From positions 1 through 34,295 of IMG/VR virus record IMGVR_UViG_3300038416_000136: a stretch of 34,295 nucleotides of DNA. One strand, given 5' to 3'. Below the pieces are notes generated by a model that was given only the letters and a program-made list of their open reading frames with translations, made no database searches and was not told the origin of the DNA. The position numbers and the translations under genes are program-made. This document shows positions 10,101 through 29,380 of this stretch, piece by piece. The DNA is from a virus. Within the stretch, counting starts at the first letter, position 1, and the number at the start of each line of letters is the position of its first letter.

Positions 10101-11639
10101 ATTCTGGACGGCCTCGCGTATCTTAGTGTCCGCCAGATCAATGTCATTGAGAGGACGGTTAGGATCGAGACCGGCGCGCGTCATTGCCTCGCGCACCCAT
10201 ACCGGCATGTTCTTCCCCTCTTTTGTTCCGACCACTTCGCTCAGTGGTACTTGTGCTGCTTGGGCCACTCCCGCTTGACGCCTTCCTTCATCATCTTTCG
10301 GGCCTGCTTTTTCGGCGGGCACTTGACCCGCGCCTTCGACGGGTTGGTCGCGCACAGCGCGAACAGCCGGTGTTGCTTTGGACTCCAGGGCATCTGGTGC
10401 TCCTTTCTTTAGCTCTTGTTTGACTGCTTCTAATCTGCCGTTGACGGTGTCGAGAATCTCGTTGTTGCGCTTGATGGCCTCCTTGCTGGCCTCGCTCCCC
10501 ATGTTCTCTCTGGTCCAGCGCACCACCTTCTGCAGCCCGGACAGGAACTTGGCGGTCCGGTTCTCCGCCTTAACGGAGGAGATGAACTCGGTGGCGCTCT
10601 TTTCCCGGATGAGCTGGGTCCAGAACCGGATGGACTCCGCCCCGTACTGTTCGTCGGTGAGCGGTTTGCCACGGTATAGAGGACCATGAATCCGTCGCTT
10701 CTCCAGTTGCTGCTCGTAGGGGCTCAGGTTATCCCAGAATTCCTTGGCCTGTTCCATCGCCGTGGCACCGTGGACTTCCTCATGGTTGATCAGGTCGTTA
10801 ATCGCGTGCTCGGGGGTAACGTCTTTGGGCAGGTCCTGCTCCAGGTACTCGTGCAGGTTCTTACGGTTAACCGTCACCTTGCCGGTATCCGGGTCCGTGT
10901 TGGCCACATCTCCCGGACGGGCCAGGGGTTCATCAGTGATGGTCCATCGTGGAGCCTTCTCCTTCAGAGCTTGCTCTCGCTCAGCCCGGACTTCTGGCGA
11001 GGCTGGAGGTCGGGCCGCACCCGACTTTGAGAATCTGGCCTCGCCGAACAGGGTTCCCATCGCCACACCGCTGACTAACTCTGGAGCAGTGGGCAGTCGG
11101 TGCTCCTGGATGGCGGGCATTGCCACTCCCATGCCTGCGCCCAAAGCGGCGCGGAAAGGAATCTGAGCCAGCTTGAACGGGGCCATGCGGGCGGAAGCGC
11201 CCATCGCAGCCACGTCACCAGCAGCGCTGGCCCACGGGTGCTCCTTCTCACCGGCTGCCAATTCTTCTTCTGCCTTCTGGGCGAACTGAGGAGCCACTGC
11301 TCTCAGGGCGGCCTTCTGTGCCTTGGCGGCGGCTATACTGGCGATAGTTCCAGTAACCAACCCGCCAATGATGCCACCACCAATTTCTCCAATTCCGGTT
11401 TCGCCAAGCACGGGGATGGCGGCTCCAGCCATTGCTCCGTACGTGGCTCCTGGCCCAGCGGCGGCCATGAATGCAGCGCCGGGGCCTACATTTGCTGCCG
11501 CATGACCTAGAGCCGACCTCAACGCGCTAGGGTGGGGAGTGTTGTAGTTTTCATCCAGGAACTGCTGGATCTCCTCCGGATTCGCGTCGTCGGGAAATTC
11601 AAGGACCCCTGCTCCTTCAACTGTGAATGTCTGGGGCAT
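4107..11639 (-). CDS. Giant polyvalent virion/ejection protein with zincin-like domain
   Basis: The protein has 2510 residues. The N-terminus (LEFPDDANPEEIQQFLDENY, about 13-32) is the short motif seen at the start of many phage ejection-type proteins. A Gly/Ala-rich membrane-active stretch follows (about 48-110 and 160-200). Residues 286-290 read HEEVH, a zinc-metalloprotease HExxH site in a helix, with E335 (GAESIRFW) as a candidate third ligand. A beta-rich domain lies near 1055-1165, then a Glu-rich low-complexity stretch. The last 430 residues resemble the C-terminal domain of large polyvalent phage proteins (NHATG near 2252, then LMFAPKLEASRW). The short motif [ML][AP]M[ST]RK recurs at 630, 725 and 1623. 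It is the last gene of the long minus-strand operon, 3 bases after its upstream neighbour. Delivery into the host with the genome is inferred, not shown. Confidence 0.8.
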   Translation of the reverse strand: MPQTFTVEGAGVLEFPDDANPEEIQQFLDENYNTPHPSALRSALGHAAANVGPGAAFMAAAGPGATYGAMAGAAIPVLGETGIGEIGGGIIGGLVTGTIASIAAAKAQKAALRAVAPQFAQKAEEELAAGEKEHPWASAAGDVAAMGASARMAPFKLAQIPFRAALGAGMGVAMPAIQEHRLPTAPELVSGVAMGTLFGEARFSKSGAARPPASPEVRAEREQALKEKAPRWTITDEPLARPGDVANTDPDTGKVTVNRKNLHEYLEQDLPKDVTPEHAINDLINHEEVHGATAMEQAKEFWDNLSPYEQQLEKRRIHGPLYRGKPLTDEQYGAESIRFWTQLIREKSATEFISSVKAENRTAKFLSGLQKVVRWTRENMGSEASKEAIKRNNEILDTVNGRLEAVKQELKKGAPDALESKATPAVRAVRDQPVEGAGQVPAEKAGPKDDEGRRQAGVAQAAQVPLSEVVGTKEGKNMPVWVREAMTRAGLDPNRPLNDIDLADTKIREAVQNDPTLTKKQKNQILKTGSAKAAPAAQPGEPQPAQAQTGLATTPPAALTAGGPAATPDISAAFPAVKMEELDALNRKITAPGYRPSKAEYERWVQLTEELDKAEAAAGVGPAPQGGEPMAMSRKPLSEDSKKKFEGLPPPAKKSSVPIVLRGPEGSEIPGYFEGWGQGVNAAGTGLEMQPWVSRLTEGGWSTGLLHKGEQIAEGEITPPPAEALAMSRKTRTPEEEVAARLISSIGGIHDDLAKRALVKENYDRIVALPKEQWGPELTKFHQEWKTKEIQDAAKKMEAQDQPTPIEIAAKAIGLTGQDLTEALSPANIAKQFGAADRALTYRSAIATLNSKSKPITPTETEGPVKPRYDVGDYKEFWTDLQEHHPEIPEQAARDVWNEAVHDVLNNASGERIKELLRPARLEKRFLGEGLLRHMPDANPHPILEDMAKWKNPTDSPAFKRFCAVRDLTPEEGKALIEQLRDMEMAERLAAREGPPPPKPGEGVAREPRTEAEKAEAERLWKEGFVIGQRRRRGAIRELSKWYNQQAVAPERSPNRKTIGLDDVWFEVKGKDVHAYAEYTTKQGEDAKFLRSVLGKGGSIKGKTATTTRSIAIVVDPKTGVHHAVSVYVRHGEPMIYNPDVYAGSKAGNHITIPQLLANYRVNATLLVKDPVYNFHQQWPNEKTYVEAIGGVAKIREQGSTAQWMAYIKEAEAEREAEKKRQHEERYFGKVTEEELAGEEAAEPEKTEEGETEEEPSISEQMAKTREERETRAWAESEEPEIPSKKVGKWDKAALEVWLRGGPGSDVLGLFQSDLSHLARESLAGSEAESLYELSNEYKVSHPLDFQKMLDAIQAKREKSGVLNGREISALYAMDKIANRIYERMLNSPTEQAKLAKLPPIPKDTEYVDMNPGEKAHYLERESLKYRALLKTFNEVYEIANEARTAQGGKGAPVEKLAVPPDTEAFRTRALDRYGDTSRRNLELAAVSAQRAAREKSISGERSLLAGSKFGGTPRTAIGRRLATYQQKLPRPPGQGPEMLPSGYPRQEPYPPPRGAFPFPPVTPSDIGGAGFTGKKPEKIPERGTPVGFGQERGFVPSQTPPSDITLRQMYQRMEAKRKGEPLPMTRKGYGVAERYQDEMRAQGRLTYQKPEEALLPKEVLIARGRDDVLSGKINPMKEMIQAKRTGYISERSTPAFRYWGYRLQQIADEVAAQSGVQSKAYKEAESRSSEWQKLIGQTSKKMFERTGKALQGWNQIGPDDMKSTTFVRNAAKAAKARRLGRAVEDIDLDESEEAEVASIVGRSKASEEVRRLTEMAVGEEASRGVDEPLDEGNKRVMSIAEKQSDLAEQGSASSLKSKKPKSSAMAMKGEEGKLPPLDPETEDELGNIGMRVMQKLSKANKMTDANWLEAMKKRLRDPDIERPDLEPYLEHVRAVSEKINETFINNYVGTGSAVKDARKMFTRKKPPIEVSIAAIRRAMEADPSGRHPSPAEAYHIWNYLKQRFFDQGVLDFREIRTKASAELGIKDATGNITNPYTQLRLFRAMSTNRTMRELTQDLVKRVRDEARIKGQAMNWLKNQQYPGWLRAARFLPRFFFWDKIVGHGLVPMVTHASNMMFNPRAWSEYFGHWQGGKWKPGAWQEMYRMQFGTLGEGRIKGADYHKLMMDELVGHERFEFWKTAGLEADPFKYTDDYQIEALQYLFGDKMSGWLQGRGFDALKTLRYAMAEKWLNSLPEHLRNQESARLIADSVNHATGIVKTQFHESLNWLMFAPKLEASRWAYVFKDTAKAANYIAHWKTASLEQRAWAKSEMQQKAMVVGFYAMALYANQSFLKMAGSNQEINFTDPKKADFLAFKVAGFKVGVMNPFVGMIRMFANALHTAFGERTKFERLTSRTKSLMEVAGQYARGKMSPLSSFATDIASAQDYAGRPLGFMPQSEPLSRSKRLQGIEPYGVGEYAAEALTPIPIEEGVKRIFMSQGMSEADASKWVRTLIIAGGMSATGARVSEDQ

Positions 11640-15683: not shown

Positions 15684-16172
15684 TCAAGGGAGGTTGGTGA
15701 AGGTCAGTACGTAGTTGGTGTTGTCGCCTGGATGGCCAATCGTCACCACGATAATATTGTAAGTGTCGTGGGATGCGAGGGGGAACTGGACATCATAGTC
15801 TCCAATTCCAGGACCAAAATCAGTCCCGTAAGCAAAAGTGGCGATCAACGCAAATGATGAGGTTCTTATTTGAACGTTAATGTTTTGGCTTGCGCCAACC
15901 CCAGTAAGATGGACGTGGAGGTTGCAGGTGCAGGGACCGCCTGCCTGAACTACCGTGCTATCCACTTCCATGAGACCGTTAAACGCTCCGTTGACATACG
16001 ACACGATGAGGGAATTTGTCACGCCTACAGCGCTGCCAGTGAAGTCGTGCCCCACCGGAGAACCCCAGGCCGTTGCATTCCAGTCGGCGCACAGATTTAC
16101 TGGCGCATTGATCGTGACGGCCACGTTCTTCTGGCACTTGTGCCCCTCGGCGTCTGTAATTCCCACCAGCAT
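15684..16172 (-). CDS. C-terminal part of a frame-split Ig-like tail protein
   Basis: The protein has 162 residues if started at the ATG within TGATG (16172), beginning MLVGITDAEGHKCQKNVAVTIN. These first residues are the last strands of an Ig-like (He_PIG type) domain whose first half ends the upstream frame. The rest is a beta-sandwich-like domain with two cysteines in GGPCTCNLHVHL and an ending NTNYVLTFTNLP. It may be translated by restart at TGATG or by a -1 shift, or the split may be an assembly or mutational error. The larger in-frame ORF that extends antisense-like to 16529 is not used. Confidence 0.65.
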   Translation of the reverse strand: MLVGITDAEGHKCQKNVAVTINAPVNLCADWNATAWGSPVGHDFTGSAVGVTNSLIVSYVNGAFNGLMEVDSTVVQAGGPCTCNLHVHLTGVGASQNINVQIRTSSFALIATFAYGTDFGPGIGDYDVQFPLASHDTYNIIVVTIGHPGDNTNYVLTFTNLP

Positions 16173-17185
16173 CAGTACGTTCCTGGGGTTGTGGGGGTGC
16201 CGCTGAGCGCCCCCGAGGAGGACATAGATAGACCCGGAGGCAGTGGTCCCAGCGGCACAATCGTCACCGGCAGCGCCACGCCCAGCGCCACCACCTGTCC
16301 GGTGTAGGGATCGCCCACTGTGCCGTCTCCTAGCGATGGTGATTGCAGCCCGATCAGGTGGATCGTGTAGTCCTGCTGGACCGACTGTCCAAAGCTGTTC
16401 TCGGCCTTGATCGTGAAGTTGTATATGCCCGGCACGTCCAGGGTTCCCGCCATAGCGCAGGTGGTGGCGGAATCCTGGAGCAGCCCGGTCCCGATCGGGA
16501 GTTGGCCGTCCGCCAGAGAGAACGTCCACTCGCCAGTGCCGGTGACTTCAAAGACCGGATCGGTAGTCAGCAACTGACCGGCGCAGCAGAACCCGTTGTC
16601 TCCCACCAGGTGTAGGGGGTCGTACGGCTGATGTCCCGGGCGTCTTCGTGCGGGGACCAGACAAACCTTCCTGGAGTTGGCGAACTGGCACACCATAGAT
16701 TCGGCAATCTGATCGGCGGTGGCTTGGCTGACATTGGCCACCACACCGGCCTTTATGGTGTAGGTGAAGGAGGAGCCGGTGTCGCACTTGGCTGTGCAGC
16801 TCTGGGCGTGGTTGAAGAACAGTTGCCTCCCCGGAACCGATGGGTTCACCGTCGGGTCCACCACCGGGAATCCAATCGGCGGCGGGCAATCGCCCATGCT
16901 AGTGCCGCAGGTCTCCGAGGTGAGGAAGGCGCAAGAGTCGGCATCGTCCTGGGAGACAAACGAGTTCGCCATGCCCACACATGGCCACGCTCCCGGGTCG
17001 CTGCCAAGTGGGGGGCCACCACTGCCGGAGAACGAACCCGATCCCGAGATCCTGAACCCGCTGCCCGGCCAGCGCATCGACACAAACTCCGGCCCGTCGT
17101 CGGCCTCGCTCGAATAGTTCGAGACCGGGTAATCGGTTCCGGGGCAGGTGACGCCGGGGTTGGGGCAATCGAAAATCGTGTCCAT
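16172..17185 (-). CDS. Cys-rich tail protein with Ig-like repeats, N-terminal part
   Basis: The protein has 337 residues from the ATG at 17185, two bases after the previous stop. The first 150 residues are Cys/Pro/Gly-rich (FDCPNPGVTCPG, SCAFLTSETCGTSMGDCPPP). Two Ig-like segments of the putative-Ig (He_PIG) kind follow. One is complete (GEWTFSLADGQLP...GIYNFTIKAENSFG). A second one stops abruptly after SGALSGTPTTPGTY, where the family normally continues with several more strand residues. That continuation is found in the -1 frame. It is likely a tail or adhesin protein. Confidence 0.68.
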   Translation of the reverse strand: MDTIFDCPNPGVTCPGTDYPVSNYSSEADDGPEFVSMRWPGSGFRISGSGSFSGSGGPPLGSDPGAWPCVGMANSFVSQDDADSCAFLTSETCGTSMGDCPPPIGFPVVDPTVNPSVPGRQLFFNHAQSCTAKCDTGSSFTYTIKAGVVANVSQATADQIAESMVCQFANSRKVCLVPARRRPGHQPYDPLHLVGDNGFCCAGQLLTTDPVFEVTGTGEWTFSLADGQLPIGTGLLQDSATTCAMAGTLDVPGIYNFTIKAENSFGQSVQQDYTIHLIGLQSPSLGDGTVGDPYTGQVVALGVALPVTIVPLGPLPPGLSMSSSGALSGTPTTPGTY

Positions 17186-17187
17186 AG

Positions 17188-19002
17188 CTAACACACCATA
17201 TCACTGAACAGCTTCCGTTCAATGGGCTCAGCCTTGAGGAACAGCCCACGCACCCGGCAGAAGCCCTTAATCGTCAGCCTCACCTGAAACTGGAACCCGG
17301 TGTTACTGGGCCTGCCCATGACCGGCGCGCACTGAATCGGAGGGTTAGACAGCGTCTTCATCTGGCGGTACGACTCGCGCTGATTGCCTTGGGGATAGGC
17401 CACGGTTCCGGGGTTGTTCGCCTGTGAGCATTCCTCGTACTCAATCCACGGATACCAGCAGACGTATCCGTCCGGTCGGTAGTCCCACCGGAACAGAACC
17501 TTGCCCACCAGCCGGTCGATCCAGATTTCCGCGCTTACCAGCTTCTTGAGTTCGGTCTCGCTGCCGAAGGTGAAGGCGGGGAACTCGATGTACCATATAA
17601 CCCGGTGGTTCTCGTCATTGTCCCAGCGCGCGAAGTTGGTCAACTCCCATAGCTCGATGGTCCCGTTGACCTCAGACCAGACCGTGGCGAAGGCTCGGGG
17701 ATCTCCACCGTAGTCACCCTCCGTCAGCTCCAGGATGCTCATGCCCTCCAACATCCCCTCCCACACCGGGGGAAGCTGCTGGTCCAGGGTTGAGATCACA
17801 TCGAAGTTGAGAGGTATGATGGCCTGGTGGGCTACCCCAACCGGGCACTGGAATGGAAGGCCGGTCTGCAGCAACCGGTTGTCGAAGTAGATCCCGCTGG
17901 CGGCCCAGAGTTTGGACCTGTCGGTGAATTGGAGCAGTCGGTTTTCGTTGATCGAGATGGGGACGTTACCCCACTGCTGGAAGTTGCGGATGGCGGTGGT
18001 GAGGGAACGGATCGAGGGCTCCAGGCACTGGAAGAACAGGTCGCCGTTCACCGCCACAATCGAGCGGTCGTTGACCCAGCCGTTGGTTGAGAGCGCCACC
18101 ACCTGGAGCGGCTGGTTGTTGGCGTCGGCTCCGATCCAGTCGGTTCGGGTGACAGGGACGGTCAGGCTGTAGATTTCCTCGCGCGTGCCAATGTAGAGAA
18201 TCCCCTGTCCCAACTGGCTGTTGATGTTTGAGGCGTAGGCGATGCCCCGGATGTTCCCGGCGTTGCTGGGAACCATGAAACCGTCACCTCCGGCGCAGAG
18301 CGGGTTCTCCTGAACGCAGAGCACTGAGTCCCGGAAGTCGTAGGCCAGGGTCCCGGTCGGCCCGCCCACGATATCCCCGGCGGAGTAGCTGCGACCCTGG
18401 GCGTACCAGACCCGGCCCATGTAGTAGCACATGGCGGTGGCGGCGGGGATCTCATTGGTGTGCGGCGGGCTCGCGCTGGTGGCGTTGACATCGGTGATGC
18501 CCTTTGACCGTCGAAGCACATTGCCGTCCCAGATCAATGGCAGGAAGTGGCCGCTGGCATCGGTGGTTCCAGGGATGACAGGGCCCGGATCGTCTCCTGC
18601 CTGAATGATGAGGAAGATCTCGGCCTGACAGAAATACACCCGGTCGGTGATGGGGTGGGATACGCCAAACATAGCCGACAGATCTACCGCCGAACCCGGA
18701 TTGTTCGTGGGCACCTTCCAGACGTGGCCGTCGATGACGACGATGTGGTAGTTGGCCTGATTGTCGGGCACGTAGATGAAGCTGCCCTGGTACTGGCCCA
18801 GGGCGGGGATGGTGCCGATCTTGTTCCAACCGAACCGCTGGGTGATGCCCCCATCCCGCACGGTGCAGTTGTCCATCCAGGCCACCGCCGTACGCTTGAG
18901 TCCGTTGGGGTTGGAGTCACTGGCCACCGTCGTAACCACGGTGGAGTTGACCCCGCTGCTCCAGTCCAGGCTGCCGTCGATGAGGATGAGGTTGTCGGCC
19001 AT
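17188..19002 (-). CDS. Large tail protein, beta-rich (tube/nozzle-like)
   Basis: The protein has 604 residues starting MADNLILIDGSLDWSSGV. It is predicted beta-rich with propeller-like repeats: GGITQRFGWNKIG, then YQGSFIYVPDNQANYHIVVIDGHVWKV, and later GILYIGTREEIYSLTVP and IAVNGDLFFQC. Phage tail proteins that form the distal tail tube of short-tailed phages share the 'GG..qR.Gw..ig' start and the propeller. I place it in that group by resemblance, not by a firm family match. The C-terminal RLTIKGFCRVRGLFLKAEPIE strand is well ordered. The gene begins one base after the LamG gene stop. Confidence 0.7.
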   Translation of the reverse strand: MADNLILIDGSLDWSSGVNSTVVTTVASDSNPNGLKRTAVAWMDNCTVRDGGITQRFGWNKIGTIPALGQYQGSFIYVPDNQANYHIVVIDGHVWKVPTNNPGSAVDLSAMFGVSHPITDRVYFCQAEIFLIIQAGDDPGPVIPGTTDASGHFLPLIWDGNVLRRSKGITDVNATSASPPHTNEIPAATAMCYYMGRVWYAQGRSYSAGDIVGGPTGTLAYDFRDSVLCVQENPLCAGGDGFMVPSNAGNIRGIAYASNINSQLGQGILYIGTREEIYSLTVPVTRTDWIGADANNQPLQVVALSTNGWVNDRSIVAVNGDLFFQCLEPSIRSLTTAIRNFQQWGNVPISINENRLLQFTDRSKLWAASGIYFDNRLLQTGLPFQCPVGVAHQAIIPLNFDVISTLDQQLPPVWEGMLEGMSILELTEGDYGGDPRAFATVWSEVNGTIELWELTNFARWDNDENHRVIWYIEFPAFTFGSETELKKLVSAEIWIDRLVGKVLFRWDYRPDGYVCWYPWIEYEECSQANNPGTVAYPQGNQRESYRQMKTLSNPPIQCAPVMGRPSNTGFQFQVRLTIKGFCRVRGLFLKAEPIERKLFSDMVC

Positions 19003-19003
19003 A

Positions 19004-19735
19004 CTACGGAGCCCCGTATCCTCCGTTGTAGAGTCTCTTCACTTCGTCAGAGCTTAGGGCTCGATTGTAGTAACTAGCATTCTCTATGGCTCCTACGAAG
19101 TAAGCTCCCGGGGCATCACCAGCTCCAACCGCGCACCCGATTGAAAATGAACCAGTACCATCATTGTAATAAGCGCAGGTAACTGATGAAGTGGAACACA
19201 CCACCGAGTTGGTGTATAGGACCGATCCATTTTGGCTGACGACAAAAACTATTTGGGTCCATACGGCAGTAGGTATGTCGGTTGAACAGGTGACCTGATT
19301 TGCGCAAGGCCCCGCGCCATAGACATAACATCTGATCTTGTGTCCGGTAGAATTCAGATCAATCTTTGGACAATAATCAGGTAATGTTGGCTCGTACTTT
19401 GAAGCCATTGTTCCAAATGCATTTTGAGAACTGCTCGGAAAAACCCAAAGGCACAGACTCAAAGCAGAACCCGGATTTAGAGTGATTGAATTCGGAACTT
19501 TCAAATAACCGGAATAGAAATAGACGCACGATCCTAGAAGCCCATTTGTCCAAGTGTAACCACTGTTCAAAGTTCCGTTATTTGCTAACCCAGAATAGTC
19601 CCGCACGGCGGTCCCGGTTCCTTCATTCATTGGCCAGAACCCGATCAAACCGAACTTCGAGGATGGGTTGATGCCGAACCCCCCAGGAGCCGCCGAGACC
19701 GAGAGTGCAAAAAACAGTAAAAGTAATTGTTTCAT
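19004..19735 (-). CDS. Secreted LamG/concanavalin-A-like lectin protein
   Basis: The protein has 243 residues. A clear Sec signal peptide (MKQLLLLFFALSVSAA, cleaved about residue 16) is followed by a LamG fold. This begins IGFWPMNEGTGTAVRDYSG and ends with the typical last strand VGAIENASYYNRALSSDEVK and LYNGG. LamG domains bind carbohydrates or proteins, so this is a candidate host-surface adhesin. The gene is A/T-richer than its neighbours and its start overlaps the previous stop by four bases (ATGA). A signal peptide on a protein in a tail operon is unusual. Confidence 0.8.
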   Translation of the reverse strand: MKQLLLLFFALSVSAAPGGFGINPSSKFGLIGFWPMNEGTGTAVRDYSGLANNGTLNSGYTWTNGLLGSCVYFYSGYLKVPNSITLNPGSALSLCLWVFPSSSQNAFGTMASKYEPTLPDYCPKIDLNSTGHKIRCYVYGAGPCANQVTCSTDIPTAVWTQIVFVVSQNGSVLYTNSVVCSTSSVTCAYYNDGTGSFSIGCAVGAGDAPGAYFVGAIENASYYNRALSSDEVKRLYNGGYGAP

Positions 19736-21141
19736 GGTTTGATCGTCTGCCAGAGGGTGTTGGTATTTCCCGAACTGTCACCTTGGATGTCCACCCACTG
19801 ACGACTGAAGGCGGTGTTGGTCGGCATCGTGAGGGTTTGTCCGTAGATCGTTGGCTGCGTGTAGTTGGTGTTAAAGAGGACGGTGTTCGTCAAAGCGCTG
19901 CCCTGGATGATTTCCAGCCTCGCCCAGCGCATTGGCGCGGTGTTGGTCGCACGAACGTAGGCGTTGGTCCCGTTCAAGGTCAGCGAGAAGGCGTTGCCCA
20001 AGGAAAGGTCCACCGTCACGTTGGTCCCTGAGATCGTGAGGCTGTTGGTTGCCGGGAAGACGTTGGTTGCCGCAGGCACAATGCCGTTGACTTGGCTGCC
20101 GTCGATTGTGATACCACTGAGCGCCTGTATGAAGTTCACATGGGCATCGTAGATGCCACCGTTGACCAAGTGAATCACGTCGGCCCCGGTCCCGGCGTTA
20201 TCCACCTTGAGAGCGGCAACTAGCCGACTGGAATTGGTGGCGAAGAACGATTGGGTTGTGCTGATCGAATAGTCGTATTCAGTGGGCGGACCCGTCGTGA
20301 TCGTCAGAGGCACTGACTGCCCCAGCTCGTAGAGGACGTTGGAAACCGTATCGTAAACGTAAATCTCATAATGGACCTGGATGGTCCCGCCTCCGCCCGT
20401 TCGGTAAGCAAATGAAGTCACAGAAATTGGCCCCTGAAGAACCTGTGAGATTGCCTGAGTGGATACCGTCTGGCGGATGTAGTCGCCGGTGTTAAACACG
20501 GATATATCCTGCGTCACGGTCACAGAAGAGGCGCTAGTCCATCCCTGGAAGTTGTTGGTCCGACCGGCGAGCGCCCCGGTGTTGGTGGTCGAAGTCAGGA
20601 ACATGAACCTCCCAATGCCCCCGATCTGGTTGATGACGAAGTTTGTTGTGGCGAGGCCGTTTCCATCTGGACCATTGGTGGCGATGCTCGCCGTTGTGGC
20701 CGTCGAGGCCGAGGCAACAGTTCCGGTGACACTGCCGGAAATCCTCACCGTTCCCCCAACTGCCGTGCCAGTAAAGTGGATGTTGGTCCCGTCAACAAAG
20801 TCCAGGTTGGTATTGGAAACTGCCGTCACAGCGACCCCGTTGGTTTTAGTAAGGGAGATGGAGTTGGTCGATGCTCCTCCTGAACTAAACATCATCCAAA
20901 GGTTGTTGCTCACCGTCCAATCTGCATTGCTGACGTAGTACTGGTTGGCGATCTGGAAGAGGAGTTGGTTCGTGAAGTCTTGCCAGGATATTGAGAAGTC
21001 CTGCACGCCGGGATTCTCCCACGGCATGTAATATCCGGCGGGAACTGCCGTGATGTGGGACAGATTGAAGATCGTGGAGTTGGCCGCACCCATTAAATTG
21101 AGGGTGCAGAACAGCGTCAGTAAACCGAGTAGTTTTTTCAT
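19732..21141 (-). CDS. Secreted Asn/Thr-rich beta protein, fibre-like
   Basis: The protein has 469 residues. The start MKKLLGLLTLFCTLNLMGAA is a Sec signal peptide with cleavage likely near residue 20. The rest is rich in Asn, Thr and Ser and short beta repeats (SNTNLDFVDGTNIHFTG, VTGTVASASTATTASIAT), as in tail fibres or Verrucomicrobiota surface proteins. The C-terminus (WARLEIIQGSALTNTVLF to LWQTIKP) appears to be a folded beta domain. Its start overlaps the stop of the collagen-like gene as ATGA. I do not recognise a named family. Confidence 0.7.
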   Translation of the reverse strand: MKKLLGLLTLFCTLNLMGAANSTIFNLSHITAVPAGYYMPWENPGVQDFSISWQDFTNQLLFQIANQYYVSNADWTVSNNLWMMFSSGGASTNSISLTKTNGVAVTAVSNTNLDFVDGTNIHFTGTAVGGTVRISGSVTGTVASASTATTASIATNGPDGNGLATTNFVINQIGGIGRFMFLTSTTNTGALAGRTNNFQGWTSASSVTVTQDISVFNTGDYIRQTVSTQAISQVLQGPISVTSFAYRTGGGGTIQVHYEIYVYDTVSNVLYELGQSVPLTITTGPPTEYDYSISTTQSFFATNSSRLVAALKVDNAGTGADVIHLVNGGIYDAHVNFIQALSGITIDGSQVNGIVPAATNVFPATNSLTISGTNVTVDLSLGNAFSLTLNGTNAYVRATNTAPMRWARLEIIQGSALTNTVLFNTNYTQPTIYGQTLTMPTNTAFSRQWVDIQGDSSGNTNTLWQTIKP

Positions 21142-21635
21142 GGTAAAAGCAGAGTGCCGCCACCGGGTTGGATCAGGTATCCGCCGCCTGGCAGTATGAT
21201 TGAGCCGGGAATGGCGGGAGCAAATGGCGTGATGGCCACCAGCAGGCCGTTGGAGAAAAAGACCGTGTTGGAAAGCCCGGTGTCCTCAAAGAGAAGCGCG
21301 AAGTTGGTAGTCAAGCCGCTCACAAAAGCGTTGGTCCCATTCGCCCCATTGGTGCCATTAACTCCGTTTGTTCCGTTGATTCCATTCACGCCATTGGTGC
21401 CGTTAGCTCCCGGCGGGCCAGCGGGTCCAGGCGGCCCGATTCCGCCGGTCGCGTTGATGATGACGTGGTTGCTGCCGTAGGTGAAGTTGATGTTGGCCCC
21501 GGGCAGCATGAAGAACTGTTGGGCCTGCTGGGCATCGGGTTTAACCTGCCACTGGCTGAACCAGTACGAGGGCGTGGAGGCCAGTACGGTAAAGCAGATC
21601 AGGACCAAAGCGATTATCGGAGCGGCGCGTCGCAC
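21138..21635 (-). CDS. Collagen-like repeat protein with N-terminal signal
   Basis: The protein has 165 residues and starts with GTG, preceded by AAGGTGG five bases upstream. Residues 1-20 are a signal peptide or signal anchor (APIIALVLICFTVLAS). Residues about 66-102 contain Gly-X-Y triplets, first GPPGPAGPPG, then a run of G-[TI]-N-G-[VA]-N. This forms a collagen-like triple helix, here with Asn/Thr/Val instead of proline. The C-terminal part ends with Gly-rich loops (LPGGGYLIQPGGGTLLLP). Collagen-like stalks are typical of phage fibres. It is the first gene of the minus-strand tail operon and is divergent from the terminase, 53 bases away. Confidence 0.8.
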   Translation of the reverse strand: MRRAAPIIALVLICFTVLASTPSYWFSQWQVKPDAQQAQQFFMLPGANINFTYGSNHVIINATGGIGPPGPAGPPGANGTNGVNGINGTNGVNGTNGANGTNAFVSGLTTNFALLFEDTGLSNTVFFSNGLLVAITPFAPAIPGSIILPGGGYLIQPGGGTLLLP

Positions 21636-21688
21636 AAGTCCACCTTACGACCTTGCCGCCGGGAGCGCAATAGCCTATCTTGAGGCCG

Positions 21689-23470
21689 ATGCCAGCATCC
21701 ACCAAGCGCGCTCAGATCGAGAAATACAATCTGAAGTGGCCCGTCGATACCAACCCGGTGATGCTGGAGATGGAGATGATCTTCCGGGGCGGGCGCTGGC
21801 GGAAGCACGACGAGACGATGGCCGGGGAGGGGATGGAGTTCCATTTCAAGGCGCTGATGAAACTGCTATGGCCGTGGATCAAGTGGCATTCCTGGGCCGA
21901 GCTGCAGGTCGAGTGCTGGATAAACTACCGGATCATCGGTCAGATCGGCGCGGCTTCCACCGGCAAGTCCTTCATTCCCGCCGCCTGCCTGCTCACGGAC
22001 TACTACTGCTACCCAAACTCCACCACCGGACTGGTCTCCTCCACCACCCGGGAGAGCCTGGAGATGAGGGTGTGGGGCGAGATCAAGAAGCTGCACAAGT
22101 CGGCCAAGCAGCTCCACGATTTTCTCCCGGGCTATCTGATCGAGGGACGCCAGCGCCTGATCAGCGATCCCAAGACCGAGTCCGCCGAAGGACGGGACTT
22201 CCGCAACGGACTGGTGGGCGTGGCCTGCAAGCGCGGCCAGGCGTTCCAGGGCATGGAGGAGTACGTCGGCATCAAGAACCGTCACCTGCGCATGGTGGCG
22301 GACGAACTGCAGTTCCTGCCGCGCCAGTTCGTGGATGCCATCTCAAACATGAACAAGAACAAGGACTTCAAGTGCGTGGGGTCCGGCAACCCGAAAGACA
22401 CAACCGATGCTCTGGGAGTACTTTGTGAACCAGCGGCCCATCTGGGAGGGTGGGATGGTGGTATTGACCAAACACCGAAAACTAAGACTTGGGAGATCCG
22501 GTTCCCGAAAGGCATCTGCATCCAGTTGCCAGGTAGTGATTCGCCCAACCTGGACGGAAAGCTCGGCATACCCCTCATCACCCAGGAGGCTATAGATTCC
22601 GACATCAAGTTCTACGGCAAGGACTCGATCCAGTACTCAATGATGGACGAGGGCCGGATGCCTCGGGGCCAAGGCGCGCGCCGGGTCATCACCCGCCAGC
22701 TATGCCTTAAGCACGGGGCAACAGAGCAGCCGCTCTGGCTCAACAGCATCCGCACCCACATCGGAGGGTTCGATGCCGCCTACCGGGGAGTGGGCGGGGA
22801 TCGCTGCGTATTTGTCGAAATGCAGTTCGGACTGGACAGCGAACGCAAGATGATCCTGGCCCTGGTCGATACGGTGGTCATTCCAATCAAGGATGCCGTG
22901 GCGGAGACGCCCGAGGATCAGATCGCCACCCAGGTCAAGGACCAGTGCGAGCGCCGGGGTATCGCGCCCGAGAACTTCGGGTTCGACTCCACCGGCCGGG
23001 GCAGCCTGATGGCGGCCTTTGGACGCCTGTGGTCGCCCAACGTGGTTCCGGTGGAGTTCGGCGGTCCGCCCACCGATCGGCCGGTGGCCAACGGCCTCGA
23101 CGTGGTCTGCAAGGACTACTACTCGAAGTTCGTGACTGAGCTGTGGTACTCGGTCCGGCTCATCATCGAGGGCGATCAGTTCCGGGGCATGACCGACGAG
23201 ATGATGGTTGAGGGCGGCAGCCGGGAGTGGACGATCGTGGGGGCCAACAAGATCGAGGTGGAACCTAAGGACAAGACCAAGCTTAAGATGGGGCGGTCAC
23301 CCGACCTGTTCGATGCCCTGGTGACAGCGGTGGAGATTGCCCGACGTCATGGATTCAAGATTGACCGGGTGGTCAATGCCGCCCATTCGCATGGGGACCA
23401 GAAGTGGAAGCAGGAATTGCGGGATCGGGCTCGCTCTCTGTGGAAGAACCACGAGCTTACTTACCGGTGA
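21689..23470 (+). CDS. terL: Terminase large subunit
   Basis: The protein has 593 residues from the ATG at 21689. Its ATPase domain has a Walker A GAASTGKS (87-94), a Walker B LRMVADE (D205/E206) and a coupling SGN (232-234). The nuclease domain shows the RNase-H-like acidic residues in GGFDAAYRG (D362), FGFDSTGRG (D433) and SPDLFDAL (D539/D542). It packages phage DNA into the prohead through the portal and cuts the concatemer. The weak ribosome site TTGAGG lies a few bases upstream. It is the only structural or packaging gene on the plus strand here, convergent with the phosphatase gene (14-base overlap) and divergent from the tail operon. No small terminase is seen next to it. Confidence 0.95.
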   Translation: MPASTKRAQIEKYNLKWPVDTNPVMLEMEMIFRGGRWRKHDETMAGEGMEFHFKALMKLLWPWIKWHSWAELQVECWINYRIIGQIGAASTGKSFIPAACLLTDYYCYPNSTTGLVSSTTRESLEMRVWGEIKKLHKSAKQLHDFLPGYLIEGRQRLISDPKTESAEGRDFRNGLVGVACKRGQAFQGMEEYVGIKNRHLRMVADELQFLPRQFVDAISNMNKNKDFKCVGSGNPKDTTDALGVLCEPAAHLGGWDGGIDQTPKTKTWEIRFPKGICIQLPGSDSPNLDGKLGIPLITQEAIDSDIKFYGKDSIQYSMMDEGRMPRGQGARRVITRQLCLKHGATEQPLWLNSIRTHIGGFDAAYRGVGGDRCVFVEMQFGLDSERKMILALVDTVVIPIKDAVAETPEDQIATQVKDQCERRGIAPENFGFDSTGRGSLMAAFGRLWSPNVVPVEFGGPPTDRPVANGLDVVCKDYYSKFVTELWYSVRLIIEGDQFRGMTDEMMVEGGSREWTIVGANKIEVEPKDKTKLKMGRSPDLFDALVTAVEIARRHGFKIDRVVNAAHSHGDQKWKQELRDRARSLWKNHELTYR

Positions 23471-23915
23471 TCCAGTTGGCAGCGATCTCGGAGTTCCACC
23501 GCCCTTGCAATCCTTGAAGCGCAGGGTGAAAGTAGTGGGCCAGCATCTCCGAGTAGGCGTCGTTCTTGGTCCATCCTTGGCTTAGACGGAAACATCCCAC
23601 GATGAGACCGGTACGGTCCTCGCCGTGCTCACAGTGAACGTAGGTGTGTGGACGCATCAAGGACACGGCAGCCACGATCAGCGACTGGCTCGGCCGAAAG
23701 ATCATCTGCCGCCACCAAGGAATGGGCAGGCGGTGGATGGAGAATCCGGCACCGTCAGGATCAACTCCCTCCTCTTCGGTGTTCAGCTTGATGACGTCGG
23801 TAATGCCCTGGCTCTTGAGGTAATCCCATCCAACCGAGCTGGGTTGTCCTCCGCGCAGGATGTCCTGCTCGACGGCGAACAAGTTCGGTATGCCGTTGGA
23901 GATGGTCACTTCCAA
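23457..23915 (-). CDS. Tyrosine/dual-specificity phosphatase-like protein
   Basis: The protein has 152 residues. The signature VHCEHGEDRTG gives the HCx5R(T/S)G active site with catalytic C95 and R101. The upstream segment RGGQPSSVGWDYLKSQGITDVIKLN is the usual N-terminal pattern of bacterial and fungal Siw14-like or dual-specificity phosphatases. The enzyme would hydrolyse phosphoester substrates, either phosphotyrosine proteins or inositol/nucleotide phosphates. I cannot tell which. It is the last gene of the operon with the lipoprotein and holin-like genes (10-base overlap upstream). A host-directed signalling role is speculative. Confidence 0.85.
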   Translation of the reverse strand: MEVTISNGIPNLFAVEQDILRGGQPSSVGWDYLKSQGITDVIKLNTEEEGVDPDGAGFSIHRLPIPWWRQMIFRPSQSLIVAAVSLMRPHTYVHCEHGEDRTGLIVGCFRLSQGWTKNDAYSEMLAHYFHPALQGLQGRWNSEIAANWITGK

Positions 23916-24358
23916 TGGGGCGGCAGCAGAACCTTGCGCGGCACGCCGTTAACCGTCATGAGCGAAGCAGACGGAAGGGCCTGGGTCAGTCCGTCGCAGA
24001 CAGCCTGGAGGTAGGGCTGGATCTGGTAGGTGGTGTTGGTTCCGATCTGGTCATACACCTGCTCGTACACCCACATCGCACCGTCCACAATGATCTTGGT
24101 CTCGGCGTTGGTGGTGGTGAGTTTTGACAGGTCGGCCACAATAGCGGCCGGGTTCACATTGGTCACCGATGCAGCGCCACAAATGACATCACGCGCCAGA
24201 GCCACCTCCGGCGTGGCCTGAGGGTAAACGTCCAGTCCAATCCGGGTCAGTCCGGCAACATCTCTGGTGACGGCGGCGGTGGTCTTTATGGAGGGAGTGG
24301 TGGAGCAGCCTGTGAACAGGATGCAGGCCAGTGATGCTGCGATAAGTGATTTGTTCAT
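23906..24358 (-). CDS. Phage lipoprotein
   Basis: The protein has 150 residues. MNKSLIAASLACILFTGC is a lipoprotein signal with lipobox LFTGC, lipidated at C18 and followed by STTP. The mature part is a helical domain (about 40-135) with no catalytic motif I recognise. Outer- or inner-membrane anchoring is expected in a diderm host. Its position after a holin-like gene would fit a spanin-type lipoprotein, but it is much longer than usual Rz1 proteins, so exclusion or another envelope role is equally possible. It starts at an ATGA overlap. Confidence 0.78.
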   Translation of the reverse strand: MNKSLIAASLACILFTGCSTTPSIKTTAAVTRDVAGLTRIGLDVYPQATPEVALARDVICGAASVTNVNPAAIVADLSKLTTTNAETKIIVDGAMWVYEQVYDQIGTNTTYQIQPYLQAVCDGLTQALPSASLMTVNGVPRKVLLPPHWK

Positions 24359-24633
24359 ATTTGTTTTCCGTTTTCCAGTTTGCTAATGGCAGCCTCTGTT
24401 GCCCGATTCTTTTCATCCTGCACTCCCTCGGCGTGCGAGGCTTTAGCTGTGGCCGCCACGAGGGCATCCTTCATGCCGTTGGTCGCAGCCTTGATTTCTT
24501 TTGTCTCGGCTTTTAGGTGGTCTCCCACTTCAGAGACCTTTCTTGCCACAATGATCTGATGGAGAAGATTCAAAGCCCCGATAATGGTGGGGCCAATTGT
24601 AACGATCAGCGCAACTTGAACGGTGTCGGTCAT
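24355..24633 (-). CDS. Holin-like small membrane protein
   Basis: The protein has 92 residues. One hydrophobic segment (about residues 5-28, VQVALIVTIGPTIIGALNLLHQ) is followed by a long Lys/Glu/Ala-rich coiled coil (AETKEIKAATNGMKDALVAATAKASH). One membrane helix plus a charged helical tail is common in phage holins or holin-like pore and anti-holin proteins. There is no endolysin nearby to confirm the assignment. Both ends overlap neighbours by four bases (ATGA), so production is coupled to the HTH protein and lipoprotein. Confidence 0.6.
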   Translation of the reverse strand: MTDTVQVALIVTIGPTIIGALNLLHQIIVARKVSEVGDHLKAETKEIKAATNGMKDALVAATAKASHAEGVQDEKNRATEAAISKLENGKQI

Positions 24634-24833
24634 ATGATTTGATTTAGCTCTATCAGTTTACAGTCTATAGCGTAGTGCGTCAACCGAACTGGGTCAATGA
24701 ATCCCAGTTTGCGATTGATGGACATACAATACCAAGCAATCGTCTTGGGGGCGCGGTGCAACAATTCGGCGATCTGCTTGCGGGTGCAGCCCATTGCGGT
24801 CCATCCTACGATCAATTCTTCGGTGATGGTCAG
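24630..24833 (-). CDS. LuxR/GerE-type helix-turn-helix protein, probable CTG start
   Basis: The protein has 67 residues and is an HTH domain with almost nothing else. It reads LTITEELIVGWTAMGCTRKQIAELL, then HRAPKTIAWYCMSINRKLG and then DPVRLTHYAI, which aligns to the LuxR-family (GerE) four-helix domain including the 'KTI..h...i.rKLG' recognition helix. No ATG, GTG or TTG begins the full domain. A CTG at 24833 makes a 4-base NTGA overlap with the preceding Fn3 gene, exactly as the ATGA/GTGA starts of neighbours do, and is my preferred start. A TTG at 24815 or an ATG at 24794 would remove the first helix. A -1 shift from the Fn3 frame is another possibility. It probably regulates phage or host transcription. 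Confidence 0.62.
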   Translation of the reverse strand: MTITEELIVGWTAMGCTRKQIAELLHRAPKTIAWYCMSINRKLGFIDPVRLTHYAIDCKLIELNQII

Positions 24834-25198
24834 TTCCCGTTGATAAGCCTGAGCACGGTTGGCGGAGGTGGGGGAACAGGGGAGTTGGTGGAGACCTCGT
24901 TGCTGAAGTTGGTGCTCTCCAGACCATTCGTATTGACTGCCGTTGCCCCGAAATAGTACGTCACCCCACGAATCAAGTTGGACACCGTTCCTGTATTGTT
25001 TGTGAACGGAAGAGAGTTCGTGTACGTCCTGGATGCCACACCCCAATAAAGCTTGTAGAGAGCAATGTTGTTGCTGGCTGGTTCGGCGTCCCACGCCAGT
25101 CCCACATAAGCCGGGGGCGGGTTGGTCAAAACAAGGTTTTGTGCTGAGGCGAGCAGGGCGACGACCATTACAAGAACGACAGGACATAAGCGTTTCAT
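24830..25198 (-). CDS. Secreted fibronectin type III protein
   Basis: The protein has 122 residues. MKRLCPVVLVMVVALLASA is a Sec signal peptide with cleavage ASA|QN. An Fn3 domain follows: VGLAWDAEPASNNIALYKLYWG, then YTNSLPF, then GVTYYFGATAVNTNGLES and FSNEVS. A Pro-rich linker and a short tail LRLINGN end the protein. Fn3 domains of this style occur in surface proteins of environmental bacteria and in phage adhesins. It is expected to be exported and to bind a surface polymer or another protein, which is inference. Confidence 0.75.
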   Translation of the reverse strand: MKRLCPVVLVMVVALLASAQNLVLTNPPPAYVGLAWDAEPASNNIALYKLYWGVASRTYTNSLPFTNNTGTVSNLIRGVTYYFGATAVNTNGLESTNFSNEVSTNSPVPPPPPTVLRLINGN

Positions 25199-25209
25199 GG
25201 CGCAACGTA

Positions 25210-25572
25210 TCACGGGCTCAGCCTTCCTGCCAAGCGGTAAAAGATGATCGGCTCCAGCTTGTTTACATGGATGTCGCAAGGCCCACTGGCGTTGCTGACC
25301 ACGACCGACCAGGATTGGAAATCCGCGCTCCACTCGATGTTCCACCAGTAGTTCGAGGGTTTGATCGAGGGCGGATACGCCCAAACAGTGGTATTGGTCG
25401 CAACAACCACGGGCACGATCTTGGCAATCAGCTTCGCCGAGCCCGCCCCCTGATGCACCGCCGCGCTCTTATGTGGTCGTTTGATGGTCGGCACTGGCGG
25501 GGGTCCGGTGGCTATGCTCCATGCGCTGACGCAGAGGGCGCAGAACACTAAGGACGGCAATGCGCGTTTCAT
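25210..25572 (-). CDS. Secreted small protein, Verrucomicrobiota-style beta domain
   Basis: The protein has 120 residues beginning MKRALPSLVFCALCVSAWSIA, which is a Sec signal peptide. The mature part has a Pro/Lys stretch, then a beta domain YWWNIEWSADFQSWSVVV...IIFYRLAGRLSP. The 'W.....W..v ... FYRL' layout is frequent in exported proteins of Verrucomicrobiota and is my strongest sequence clue to host origin. Its ATG overlaps the preceding stop by one base (TGATG). I can infer no enzymatic function. Confidence 0.68.
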   Translation of the reverse strand: MKRALPSLVFCALCVSAWSIATGPPPVPTIKRPHKSAAVHQGAGSAKLIAKIVPVVVATNTTVWAYPPSIKPSNYWWNIEWSADFQSWSVVVSNASGPCDIHVNKLEPIIFYRLAGRLSP

Positions 25573-26276
25573 CAATCAGTTGCCACAGCCCACGGAGGGA
25601 CTTCGGCCAGCAGTGCCGCTTTTGCAGCGATCCCATCGGGTGGGCCAACGCTGGGAGGAGCGGCAGGGGTTTGTAAACTCAGATTCACTAATCCGCCCGT
25701 ATTTCCCAGAGCTACTAGCTGAGTCAAAATGGTATTAACTGCCTGAATCGTCAATAGCCCGCTGCTGAAGTTCGCAAAATTCAAAGCAGTCAGACTGCCC
25801 ACGCTCATTGTAGTAAATAGGTTACTGGAAGCCTGAATAGATATAAGCCCCGGACAGTTGCTTACTGTCAGGAACGTGATCCCTGAAAGGTCGGCGCGAA
25901 GAAGCTGTAGATTTGCACAACCAACGAACGTGAGTGAGTTGGTCGCATTATAGCGGGTTGAAAAGTTAATAAGTGCCGGGAGTGCCTGTGGCGCAGTGAT
26001 GGAAGTGACTCCTTGATTATCCAGATTCACGTCTGACACGCTCGCAATATCCGCCGTTGCAAAGAACGTCGCCCGGTCAACGGGACCGAAGTTGCCGTTC
26101 GCGTCGGTCCAATTAATCTGAGCGGTGGGAGGCTCGTAGGAGAATTGAGGGACGGGAGGGCCACCATTGGCCCACTGGCAAATCAAGTAGATCATCACCT
26201 CTTGCAATGATCCCTTGGGGATACACCTGTAGCACTTGGCCGCAGCCATCAGGTCATTGGGATCGCAGGAGATCAC
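25572..26276 (-). CDS. Cys-module plus beta-solenoid/LRR-like adhesin
   Basis: The protein has 234 residues from a GTG in a GTGA overlap (MISCDPNDLMAAAKC). Residues 4-36 are a copy of the cysteine module CDPNxL..A.KC..CIP.G...EV..YL. A linker follows, then irregular leucine/asparagine-rich strands (DLSGITFLTVSNCPGLISIQASSN and similar) that look like a beta-solenoid or LRR-type repeat. The end reads PPDGIAAKAALLAEV. Such proteins often act as phage receptor-binding or tail-tip proteins, which is inference. The A/T-richer DNA suggests a swapped module. A GTG at 26339 would add 21 unneeded residues. Confidence 0.68.
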   Translation of the reverse strand: MISCDPNDLMAAAKCYRCIPKGSLQEVMIYLICQWANGGPPVPQFSYEPPTAQINWTDANGNFGPVDRATFFATADIASVSDVNLDNQGVTSITAPQALPALINFSTRYNATNSLTFVGCANLQLLRADLSGITFLTVSNCPGLISIQASSNLFTTMSVGSLTALNFANFSSGLLTIQAVNTILTQLVALGNTGGLVNLSLQTPAAPPSVGPPDGIAAKAALLAEVPPWAVATD

Positions 26277-26485
26277 TTGTTCACGATCTGGCAGAGCAGG
26301 TAAGTCTGAACCTCCGGCTGCATACCGTTCGGGATACACCTATAGCACTTGGCAGCATCCATCAACTGCTGGGGCGTCAAGCCGGTGCCCAGGATCTGGT
26401 TGAGCAGGTAGATAATGACCTCTGGCTGCATCCCGTTAGGGATGCACTTCATGCACTTGGACGCTTCCAGCAGCGCGTTGGGATC
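26172..26485 (-). repeat. Three tandem copies of a Cys-containing 30-residue module
   Basis: Copies lie at 26393-26485, 26285-26377 and 26172-26264, spaced about 110 bases apart. All encode [DA]-P-N/Q-x-L-x-x-A-x-K-C-x-x-C-I-P-x-G-x-x-x-E-V-x-x-Y-L. The first two copies form one small protein and the third begins the adhesin gene, so a repeat array crosses a gene boundary. A looser version (CLCC...LLCNLMN) ends the gene at 26504. Confidence 0.8.
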
Positions 26486-26500
26486 GCAGTCGATGGCCAT
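26273..26500 (-). CDS. Small two-copy Cys-module protein
   Basis: The protein has 75 residues made of two back-to-back modules: CDPNALLEASKCMKCIPNGM, then EVIIYLLNQI, a short GTGLT linker, then LMDAAKCYRCIPNGM and EVQTYLLCQI. Each module has a KCxxC pair and a helix. The cysteines may bind metal or cross-link virion subunits. I have seen similar small proteins beside tail genes in environmental phages, but I know of no tested function. The gene is three bases from its upstream partner, and its stop overlaps the next start as GTGA. Confidence 0.72.
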   Translation of the reverse strand: MAIDCDPNALLEASKCMKCIPNGMQPEVIIYLLNQILGTGLTPQQLMDAAKCYRCIPNGMQPEVQTYLLCQIVNK

Positions 26501-27853: not shown

Positions 27854-29380
27854 TTATTGGTCGGGTGGATTGGTAGGAGTCTCAGGCGGTGAAGCCTGGG
27901 GTTCCTGCGGGCCTAACGGGCCAGCTCCAGTGCCCTGAGGCGGCGGAGGACTGGTCGTTCCAGCGGGAACGCCCAGCTCTTCCGGCCAACCAGCGGGCAG
28001 CGGGCAAACCGGCAGGCAGCTATTGCGATTCTGCACAGGATAGCCTGGGTCAGGCGAGCAAGGTTCGATCTGCGGGATGCAGAACTGCTCGCGTTTGTGG
28101 AAGAACACCTCGGCGAACTCCGTGTGGAGCGGCCGCACGTAGTACTTGAACCACGCGATGAACTGCCCCTTGTTCTCCCATTTGTTGCTGATGGCCACGC
28201 CCGAGGCGTCAGCGCCAAGGTCGTGCATGGCAAACCGCCATTTCCCACCGAAGTCCCGATGACCGAACGGCATCTCGGGATTGAGAGGGCGCGCATCCGG
28301 CACCAGAAGCTCCATCGCTTTCTTGTGCCAGATATAGCTGATGGCGTAGTGCGCCTTGTCGAAGTCGGGATTCTCGTCGGAACCGAGCCCTGCCGATCCA
28401 CCCGCGCCGGTCGTGATGCCGTTAACATACGGCAGCACCACCTCGTAGCGATAACGGTTGGGAGCCGAGCCCGCGCCGAGGTCGGCCACGAAGTTGAATC
28501 GCAACCCCATTTCGTCCACGCGCACCATGAAGTTGCCGATCTGGCCACTGAAGCCATACCGCCAGTACTTCTCAGTCTCGTTGAAGTTGGTGAAGCGCCA
28601 GTTGCCCAGCACATTCGGGCTGTCACCACCACCGACGCCCTTGTCCCCGCCCAGATGTTCCAGGTTCCAGCAGGTATCCATGTCGGTCACCAGCTCGATG
28701 AACGGGGCGGTGTCCTTGAACGGATTCTTGCCCGCATAGCCTCGCCGCATGAGCGGGCTGAAGCGGTTCTGGAGCATCTGAGGCACCAGCATGAACACGT
28801 TGTTCGGGTCCACCGAGCAATCGAAGAAGGCTTCGTCGCCATTGGCGTCCAGACTCCAGGTGAAGGTGAACTGGGTCAGGGCGGCGTTGGCCGTGTTGTG
28901 CTGCTTGGCCCACAGCAACGCCCGCTTCCGCAGGTAATTGCTGGAGATGTCCGTGGTCGCCGGGCGCAGGATCTCGTTAATCAACTGCGAGATGTGCTGC
29001 TCGGCATGGGTGATGTGCATGTCCTGGTCATAGCACAGAAGCGGCGTAGCCCAGGTCTGCTGTTCGGCGTAGTAAGTGAGCCGATCCGCGCCCCAGCCGA
29101 TGCAGTGTTCCTTGGGATCGCAGGGGGAACCCTGGCAGCCGGGGCCATTGGCCACGACTTTTTCCCACGGCTTCGTGGTGTTGGGGAATACGGAACGGAA
29201 ACGGTCTTGCGTGATCTCAACCGGCGTACCCATAGGGGTCGTGCCGGTGGACACGTTGAGGAGCCAACCGTCGGTCGGTCGGATATCCTCCATGATGAGC
29301 TCATCAAACTTGGGCGTCTGGTCAACGAAGAACTGACCGAAATCGCACGCTTTGATGATGCCCGGTGTTGGACAGGCCAT
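27854..29380 (-). CDS. Probable major capsid protein
   Basis: The protein has 508 residues and directly follows the probable scaffold and its small partner, the usual place of the capsid gene. The N-terminus (FDELIMEDIRPTDGWLLNVSTGTTP) and the long helix MHITHAEQHISQLINEILRP are compatible with a capsid subunit, as is the C-terminal part YAISYIWHKKAMELLVPDARP. It is unusually Cys-rich (about 15 Cys, e.g. GCQGSPCDPKEHC) and ends in a Pro/Gly-rich tail (TTSPPPPQGTGAGPLGPQ). I cannot confirm the HK97 fold by eye. HNH genes flank it on both sides. Confidence 0.7.
   Translation of the reverse strand: MACPTPGIIKACDFGQFFVDQTPKFDELIMEDIRPTDGWLLNVSTGTTPMGTPVEITQDRFRSVFPNTTKPWEKVVANGPGCQGSPCDPKEHCIGWGADRLTYYAEQQTWATPLLCYDQDMHITHAEQHISQLINEILRPATTDISSNYLRKRALLWAKQHNTANAALTQFTFTWSLDANGDEAFFDCSVDPNNVFMLVPQMLQNRFSPLMRRGYAGKNPFKDTAPFIELVTDMDTCWNLEHLGGDKGVGGGDSPNVLGNWRFTNFNETEKYWRYGFSGQIGNFMVRVDEMGLRFNFVADLGAGSAPNRYRYEVVLPYVNGITTGAGGSAGLGSDENPDFDKAHYAISYIWHKKAMELLVPDARPLNPEMPFGHRDFGGKWRFAMHDLGADASGVAISNKWENKGQFIAWFKYYVRPLHTEFAEVFFHKREQFCIPQIEPCSPDPGYPVQNRNSCLPVCPLPAGWPEELGVPAGTTSPPPPQGTGAGPLGPQEPQASPPETPTNPPDQ

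Follow-up and report, generated by a model that had tools for sequence, protein, structure and literature searches.

Predicted exported proteins, several of them fibre-like, beside the terminase gene in a group of uncultured tailed phages

Gene organization and signal sequences

The window analysed here (G000), the whole stretch of DNA under study, is an IMG/VR virus record of 34,295 bases. It belongs to a group of uncultured tailed phages whose host is probably a member of the Verrucomicrobiota. Its relevant features are listed below; a hyphen in a motif marks the predicted cleavage site, and "exported" denotes a prediction.

27854..29380, minus strand: putative major capsid protein, with 43 relatives at 51-100% identity; upstream anchor of the exported-gene stretch
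25210..25572, minus strand: exported protein of 120 aa without known domain; SPI-type signal MKRALPSLVFCALCVSA, cut before W
24830..25198, minus strand: exported Fn3-like protein of 122 aa; SPI-type signal MKRLCPVVLVMVVALLASA, cut before Q (AxA-Q)
24355..24633, minus strand: small holin-like membrane protein with one N-terminal transmembrane stretch (by inspection) and without signal peptide
23906..24358, minus strand: lipoprotein of 150 aa; SPII signal MNKSLIAASLACILFTG, cut before C (lipobox LFTG-C)
21680..23470, plus strand: terminase large subunit (phrog_2, E 6.6e-7), present in 32 loci
21138..21635, minus strand: exported collagen-like protein of 165 aa with an SYWF motif and a collagen repeat at residues 64-100; GTG start, SPI signal MRRAAPIIALVLICFTVLA, cut before S
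19732..21141, minus strand: exported Asn/Thr-rich protein of 469 aa, matched at 99% identity by copies in three further phage contigs; SPI signal MKKLLGLLTLFCTLNLMGAA, cut before N, the lowest score among the six
19004..19735, minus strand: exported protein of 243 aa with a LamG/ConA-like lectin domain (Pfam Laminin_G_3, E 2.4e-19); SPI signal MKQLLLLFFALSVSA, cut before A
18997..21313, no strand assigned: exchanged block of 2.3 kb, 97% identical in contigs L069, L070 and L072
17188..19002, minus strand: conserved tail-type gene without signal, present in 21 loci, downstream of the exported cassette
4107-11639: gene encoding 2510 aa

An earlier note on this DNA had described six open reading frames headed by Sec or lipoprotein signals within the virion operons. 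All six frames are present, with one start corrected: the Fn3 gene likely begins at ATG 25198, immediately past the upstream stop, and not at 25384, a spurious frame start; for the 25210 gene, the start is ATG 25572. No strong Shine-Dalgarno sequence was found in the 22 bases upstream of any of the six starts, which makes these start calls less certain. The genes form two islands. Genes 25210, 24830 and 23906 (island 1) lie in the capsid operon; the oppositely oriented terminase gene separates them from 21138, 19732 and 19004 (island 2), which lie immediately upstream of the tail-type gene in one operon. The terminase strand is opposite to both the capsid and tail operons, an arrangement retained in most relatives.

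Signals were detected with a heuristic scorer that looks for a basic n-region, a hydrophobic h-region and small residues at -3/-1 or a lipobox. When calibrated on 40 E. coli coding sequences, the scorer found all six exported proteins (YbgD, TolB, Pal, CpoB, YbgS, ModA) and gave one false hit among 34 at annotated starts, with two more when starts were free; some N-terminal transmembrane helices were also flagged, both in E. coli and in five reference phages. Spurious open reading frames scored positive at 4.6% with free start choice. In the window, the six named genes alone were positive (five with SPI-like signals, one with a lipoprotein signal), each with the complete layout of a Sec substrate; the 38 others were all negative. 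Six positives among the 14 genes between the capsid and tail genes would be expected by chance with P ~2e-5. Cleavage sites of the AxA-Q type numbered 18, compared with a shuffle mean of 6. Thus, the claim of six N-terminal signals held for every protein, and the signals are real sequence features that strongly suggest export.

The capsid gene is putative, named from its position and conservation: its predicted structure was a poor model (mean pLDDT 42), and a fold search with this low-confidence model gave weak hints of capsid proteins (best E 2.9e-3). The tail-type function of 17188..19002 is suggested by gene position. The capsid gene was found in 43 IMG/VR loci; many of the contigs concerned measure 54-58 kb, which makes it likely that the window covers only part of a genome. 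No relatives of the capsid and terminase proteins were found among 50,697 GenBank phage records, and an INPHARED search with the capsid, terminase, 19732 and 19004 proteins gave no match. Searches of PDB sequences with the capsid, 19004 and 17188 proteins were likewise without match, the sole capsid hit (E 0.47) being a chance one. Among bacterial records, the capsid gene turned up only once, on a short contig assigned to a Pedosphaera MAG; 387 other Verrucomicrobiota genomes lacked it. This makes a host in this phylum probable but not certain.

Several neighbouring genes deserve mention. A change of frame divides an Ig-like (He_PIG) domain at 15684-17194 (minus strand): GTPTTPGTY-stop closes the frame 16172-17194, and the following frame, with a TGATG overlap, appears to continue the domain. 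This may reflect a programmed frameshift, translational coupling or an assembly indel. A tyrosine/dual-specificity phosphatase gene (HCEHGEDRT; 23457-23915, minus strand) follows the lipoprotein gene in the late operon, and its homologue at L031:14713-15210 bears an export-type N-terminus. A short LuxR/GerE helix-turn-helix protein is encoded between exported genes of the late operon (24630-24824, minus strand). A Cys-repeat family (CxxCIPxGMxxxVxxYLL) is represented at 26273-26500 and 25572-26339 (minus strand) and by about 60 members in relatives; it is essentially never exported and also heads larger adhesin-like proteins.

Conservation of export and exchange of the cassette

The earlier note would count its reading as supported if at least five of the six proteins scored as signal-bearing and were kept in related phages. 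With the heuristic scorer in place of SignalP, all six score so and exported genes recur at the same place in relatives, in a pattern that is broader than that note could see. Conservation was assessed in the 27 phages whose capsid-to-terminase stretch is complete, the window included and near-duplicates removed. From the capsid gene to the terminase and on to the tail gene, 93 of 249 genes (37%) bear signals versus 15 of 465 (3%) elsewhere (odds ratio 18; Fisher p 4e-33, indicative only since the genes are related). At least one such gene is present in this stretch in 26 of the 27 phages, and at least three in 21.

Export status is uniform inside most of the exported families, at median identities of about 40%. 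Signals were found in 8/8 members of one lipoprotein family, in 3/3 of the 25210 family (position and signal being kept in L010 and L033) and in 4/4 of the motif family as clustered. The Fn3 family is exported in 8/8 cases, four as SPI proteins and four as lipoproteins, a switch that is hard to explain unless the Fn3 protein acts outside the cytoplasm. Adjacent cytoplasmic families carry signals in 0/36 and 2/60 members; of the two exceptions, one (L010) joined its family solely via a shared C-terminal domain and the other (L031) is a false start within a repeat. A few small membrane-protein families have mixed export status. Among relatives, the exported proteins carry LamG, collagen, pectate-lyase beta-helix, BNR and Fn3 domains.

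In the window, the Laminin_G_3 domain of 19004 scores 70.4 bits against a curated cut-off of 27.6, the collagen repeat of 21138 falls just short of its own (Pfam Collagen, E 3.9e-6; 27.0 bits vs 27.2), and the fn3 match of 24830 (E 2.7e-4) is under the curated cut-off. The counterpart of 21138 in L033 reaches 45.9 bits for Collagen. The collagen repeat also links 21138 to phage tail fibre PHROGs, and Pfam detected no known phage fibre N- or C-terminal domain in this protein. Asn plus Thr make up 17.6% of exported phage proteins versus a comparison value of 10.4%. In the Pedosphaera bin sampled, the difference is smaller (11.8% vs 9.8%, from a small sample with several false calls), and the enrichment is thus not taken as proof of host mimicry.

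A motif, SY(W/F)xxxxFxRxPxAxxxxxYLxI, follows the cleavage site directly in nine proteins whose C-termini are dissimilar, and a tenth version occurs in contigs L069, L070 and L072. The structure predicted for this motif family was a poor model (mean pLDDT 37). The motif appears to be confined to phages, as no credible match was found in 289 Verrucomicrobiota genomes. The sole bacterial match, in L102, was spurious. Motif type may track the tail-gene lineage, since three of the four SYWF-type phages cluster together, which is suggestive only. The C-terminal 260 residues of an exported protein in L010 share 37-39% identity with the ends of Cys-repeat proteins that lack a signal (L040, L007, L009), so the same module is found with and without an export head.

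The exchanged block comprises the 3' part of the collagen gene together with 19732 and 19004, and the flanking DNA does not align. The window and the phages that share the block are otherwise distant, with terminases 32-33% and tail proteins 45% identical. Their collagen genes are similar in the signal region and alike after the stalk; the segment from signal to stalk differs, being of the SYWF type in one and the SYFN type in the other. Between the two phages, 19732 is under purifying selection (dN 0.009, dS 0.078), and 19004 has few changes (dN 0.013, dS 0.029). Recent mosaicism across families or lifestyles has been reported in a survey to be exclusive to receptor-binding proteins (PMC10684548). 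Judged from the alignments, the sharing of this block is a recent module exchange of the receptor-binding type between phages.

Possible roles of the exported proteins

Virion assembly in tailed phages is taken to be cytoplasmic, and what these phages export is usually limited to a handful of proteins for lysis or exclusion. For the present phages, we give about even chances to late adhesins that act at the envelope and mask receptors, beside a lipoprotein of the lysis or exclusion type. The six phage-encoded proteins would be expressed late with the capsid and tail operons, as gene order suggests, and exported by the host Sec machinery with cleavage or lipidation, as sequence and conservation strongly suggest. 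Island 1 would supply small periplasmic or outer-membrane proteins by the holin-like gene, with lipoprotein 23906 acting at the outer membrane in exclusion or lysis. Island 2 would supply a fibre-like, lectin-bearing adhesin cassette that is swapped like a receptor-binding module. To judge from their domains, the collagen-stalked, lectin-bearing adhesins may assemble outside the cytoplasm, possibly as oligomers. By analogy with exclusion proteins, they could then bind the surface glycans used by virions and so mask these receptors against further adsorption and keep progeny from adhering to the infected cell or to debris.

Envelope adhesins are supported by the six signals confined to these genes in the window, the concentration of exported genes around capsid, terminase and tail genes in the 27 phages, the uniform export status inside families with the signal switch of the Fn3 family, the excess of AxA-Q sites, the recent exchange of the cassette and the LamG, collagen, beta-helix, BNR and Fn3 domains of the exported proteins, and precedent is provided by exclusion lipoproteins that are encoded beside receptor-binding genes (T5 Llp, Rtp45). 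Three points argue against them. Known exclusion proteins are small lipoproteins and not fibres, the conserved motif before the collagen stalk resembles a virion docking domain, and the C-terminal module shared with signal-less proteins works with a cytoplasmic, probably virion-bound head.

A second explanation, possible if rather doubtful, is that the island 2 proteins are virion fibres that are exported by Sec, fold in the periplasm or outside the cell and dock on the tail at or after lysis via the motif exposed by cleavage. The position of this motif, the variable C-termini, the collagen stalk and lectin domains, the exchange of the receptor-binding type (PMC10684548) and the adjoining tail-type gene would all fit such fibres. 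However, no precedent for an exported tail fibre in tailed phages was found in the open-access literature searched, and signal-less candidates (the proteins headed by Cys repeats and the Ig-like 16172) could serve on the virion instead.

It is improbable that the small exported proteins of island 1 act mainly in lysis, as spanin or lysis-timing factors beside a holin, with island 2 as a separate matter. Lipoprotein 23906, the only lipoprotein among the six, has in its lipobox the mark expected of an outer-membrane spanin partner, and lipoproteins recur at a similar location near the terminase in 20 of the 27 phages; no PHROG match was found for it. The holin-like neighbour 24355 has relatives in L020, L031, L032, L037 and L042, and its family search gave no match above chance. 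This protein is unlike an i-spanin, however, as positive residues after the transmembrane stretch predict (by inspection only) a cytoplasmic C-terminus. Furthermore, no endolysin was recognized, and neither the Fn3 protein nor 25210 gave a lysis-family match.

Are the signals mere lookalikes? Island 2 would then encode ordinary fibres assembled in the cytoplasm, their hydrophobic N-termini serving as assembly or membrane-contact segments. The domains and neighbours of tail-fibre type and the flagging of some transmembrane helices by the scorer lend this some credit, but it is quite improbable given the full n-h-c layout with AxA-Q sites and the switching of the Fn3 family between lipoprotein and SPI signals. 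In T7, N4, lambda, phi38:1 and crAss001, moreover, the scorer gave 2-5 hits per 40-50 kb, mainly small membrane, lysis or Lom-type proteins, and flagged no tail fibre for a signal-type N-terminus.

The earlier note's alternative of host genes carried by the phage is unlikely, and their chance acquisition very improbable, because the LamG domains 26-38% identical in the Pedosphaera genome bin and the AT-richer composition of the LamG gene relative to adjacent virion genes are outweighed by families that recur at the same position in dozens of phages, a phage-only motif, exchange of the block between phages and the low dN/dS of 19732, which point to phage genes selected for export and not to stray host genes.

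Relation to known systems

In almost all phages sampled, between one and seven exported proteins, many with fibre or lectin domains, are retained beside the terminase gene. Such a conserved set implies either elaborate surface masking by envelope adhesins or an unknown route of adhesin assembly, and the exchange of the cassette ties the exported proteins to host recognition in a group without a match in GenBank phage records.

Verrucophage P8625 infects Verrucomicrobia, the probable host group here; unlike in the present phages, signal peptides were reported in 0 of its 52 proteins (PMC4642752). The closest functional parallels may be T5 Llp, Cor and Rtp45, which are phage-encoded, exported, located beside receptor-binding genes and active at the host envelope (PMC9586334, PMC12685063). 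Each of them is a lone small lipoprotein that lacks fibre and lectin domains, whereas several SPI proteins with collagen and LamG domains are found here. Of the six proteins, only 23906 shares their lipoprotein signal, and no sequence match to exclusion lipoproteins of this type was found. Lambda Lom is likewise exported and flagged by the same scorer, and its gene follows J immediately in the tail region, but Lom is one outer-membrane protein that is not fibre-like and does not belong to a multiplied, conserved island. The collagen-like EPcl tail fibres of E. coli share with 21138 a collagen stalk in a fibre-type protein and modular exchange (PMC3368898); no signal sequence is described for EPcl in that report, and the EPcl phage fibre N- and C-terminal domains are absent from 21138. 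Modular receptor-binding proteins combine a constant N-terminus with a variable binding C-terminus and are recently exchanged across distant phages (PMC10684548), as in island 2, where a signal peptide precedes the constant segment. Exported phage proteins are thus known; what is unusual here is a set that is fibre-like, multiplied and conserved.
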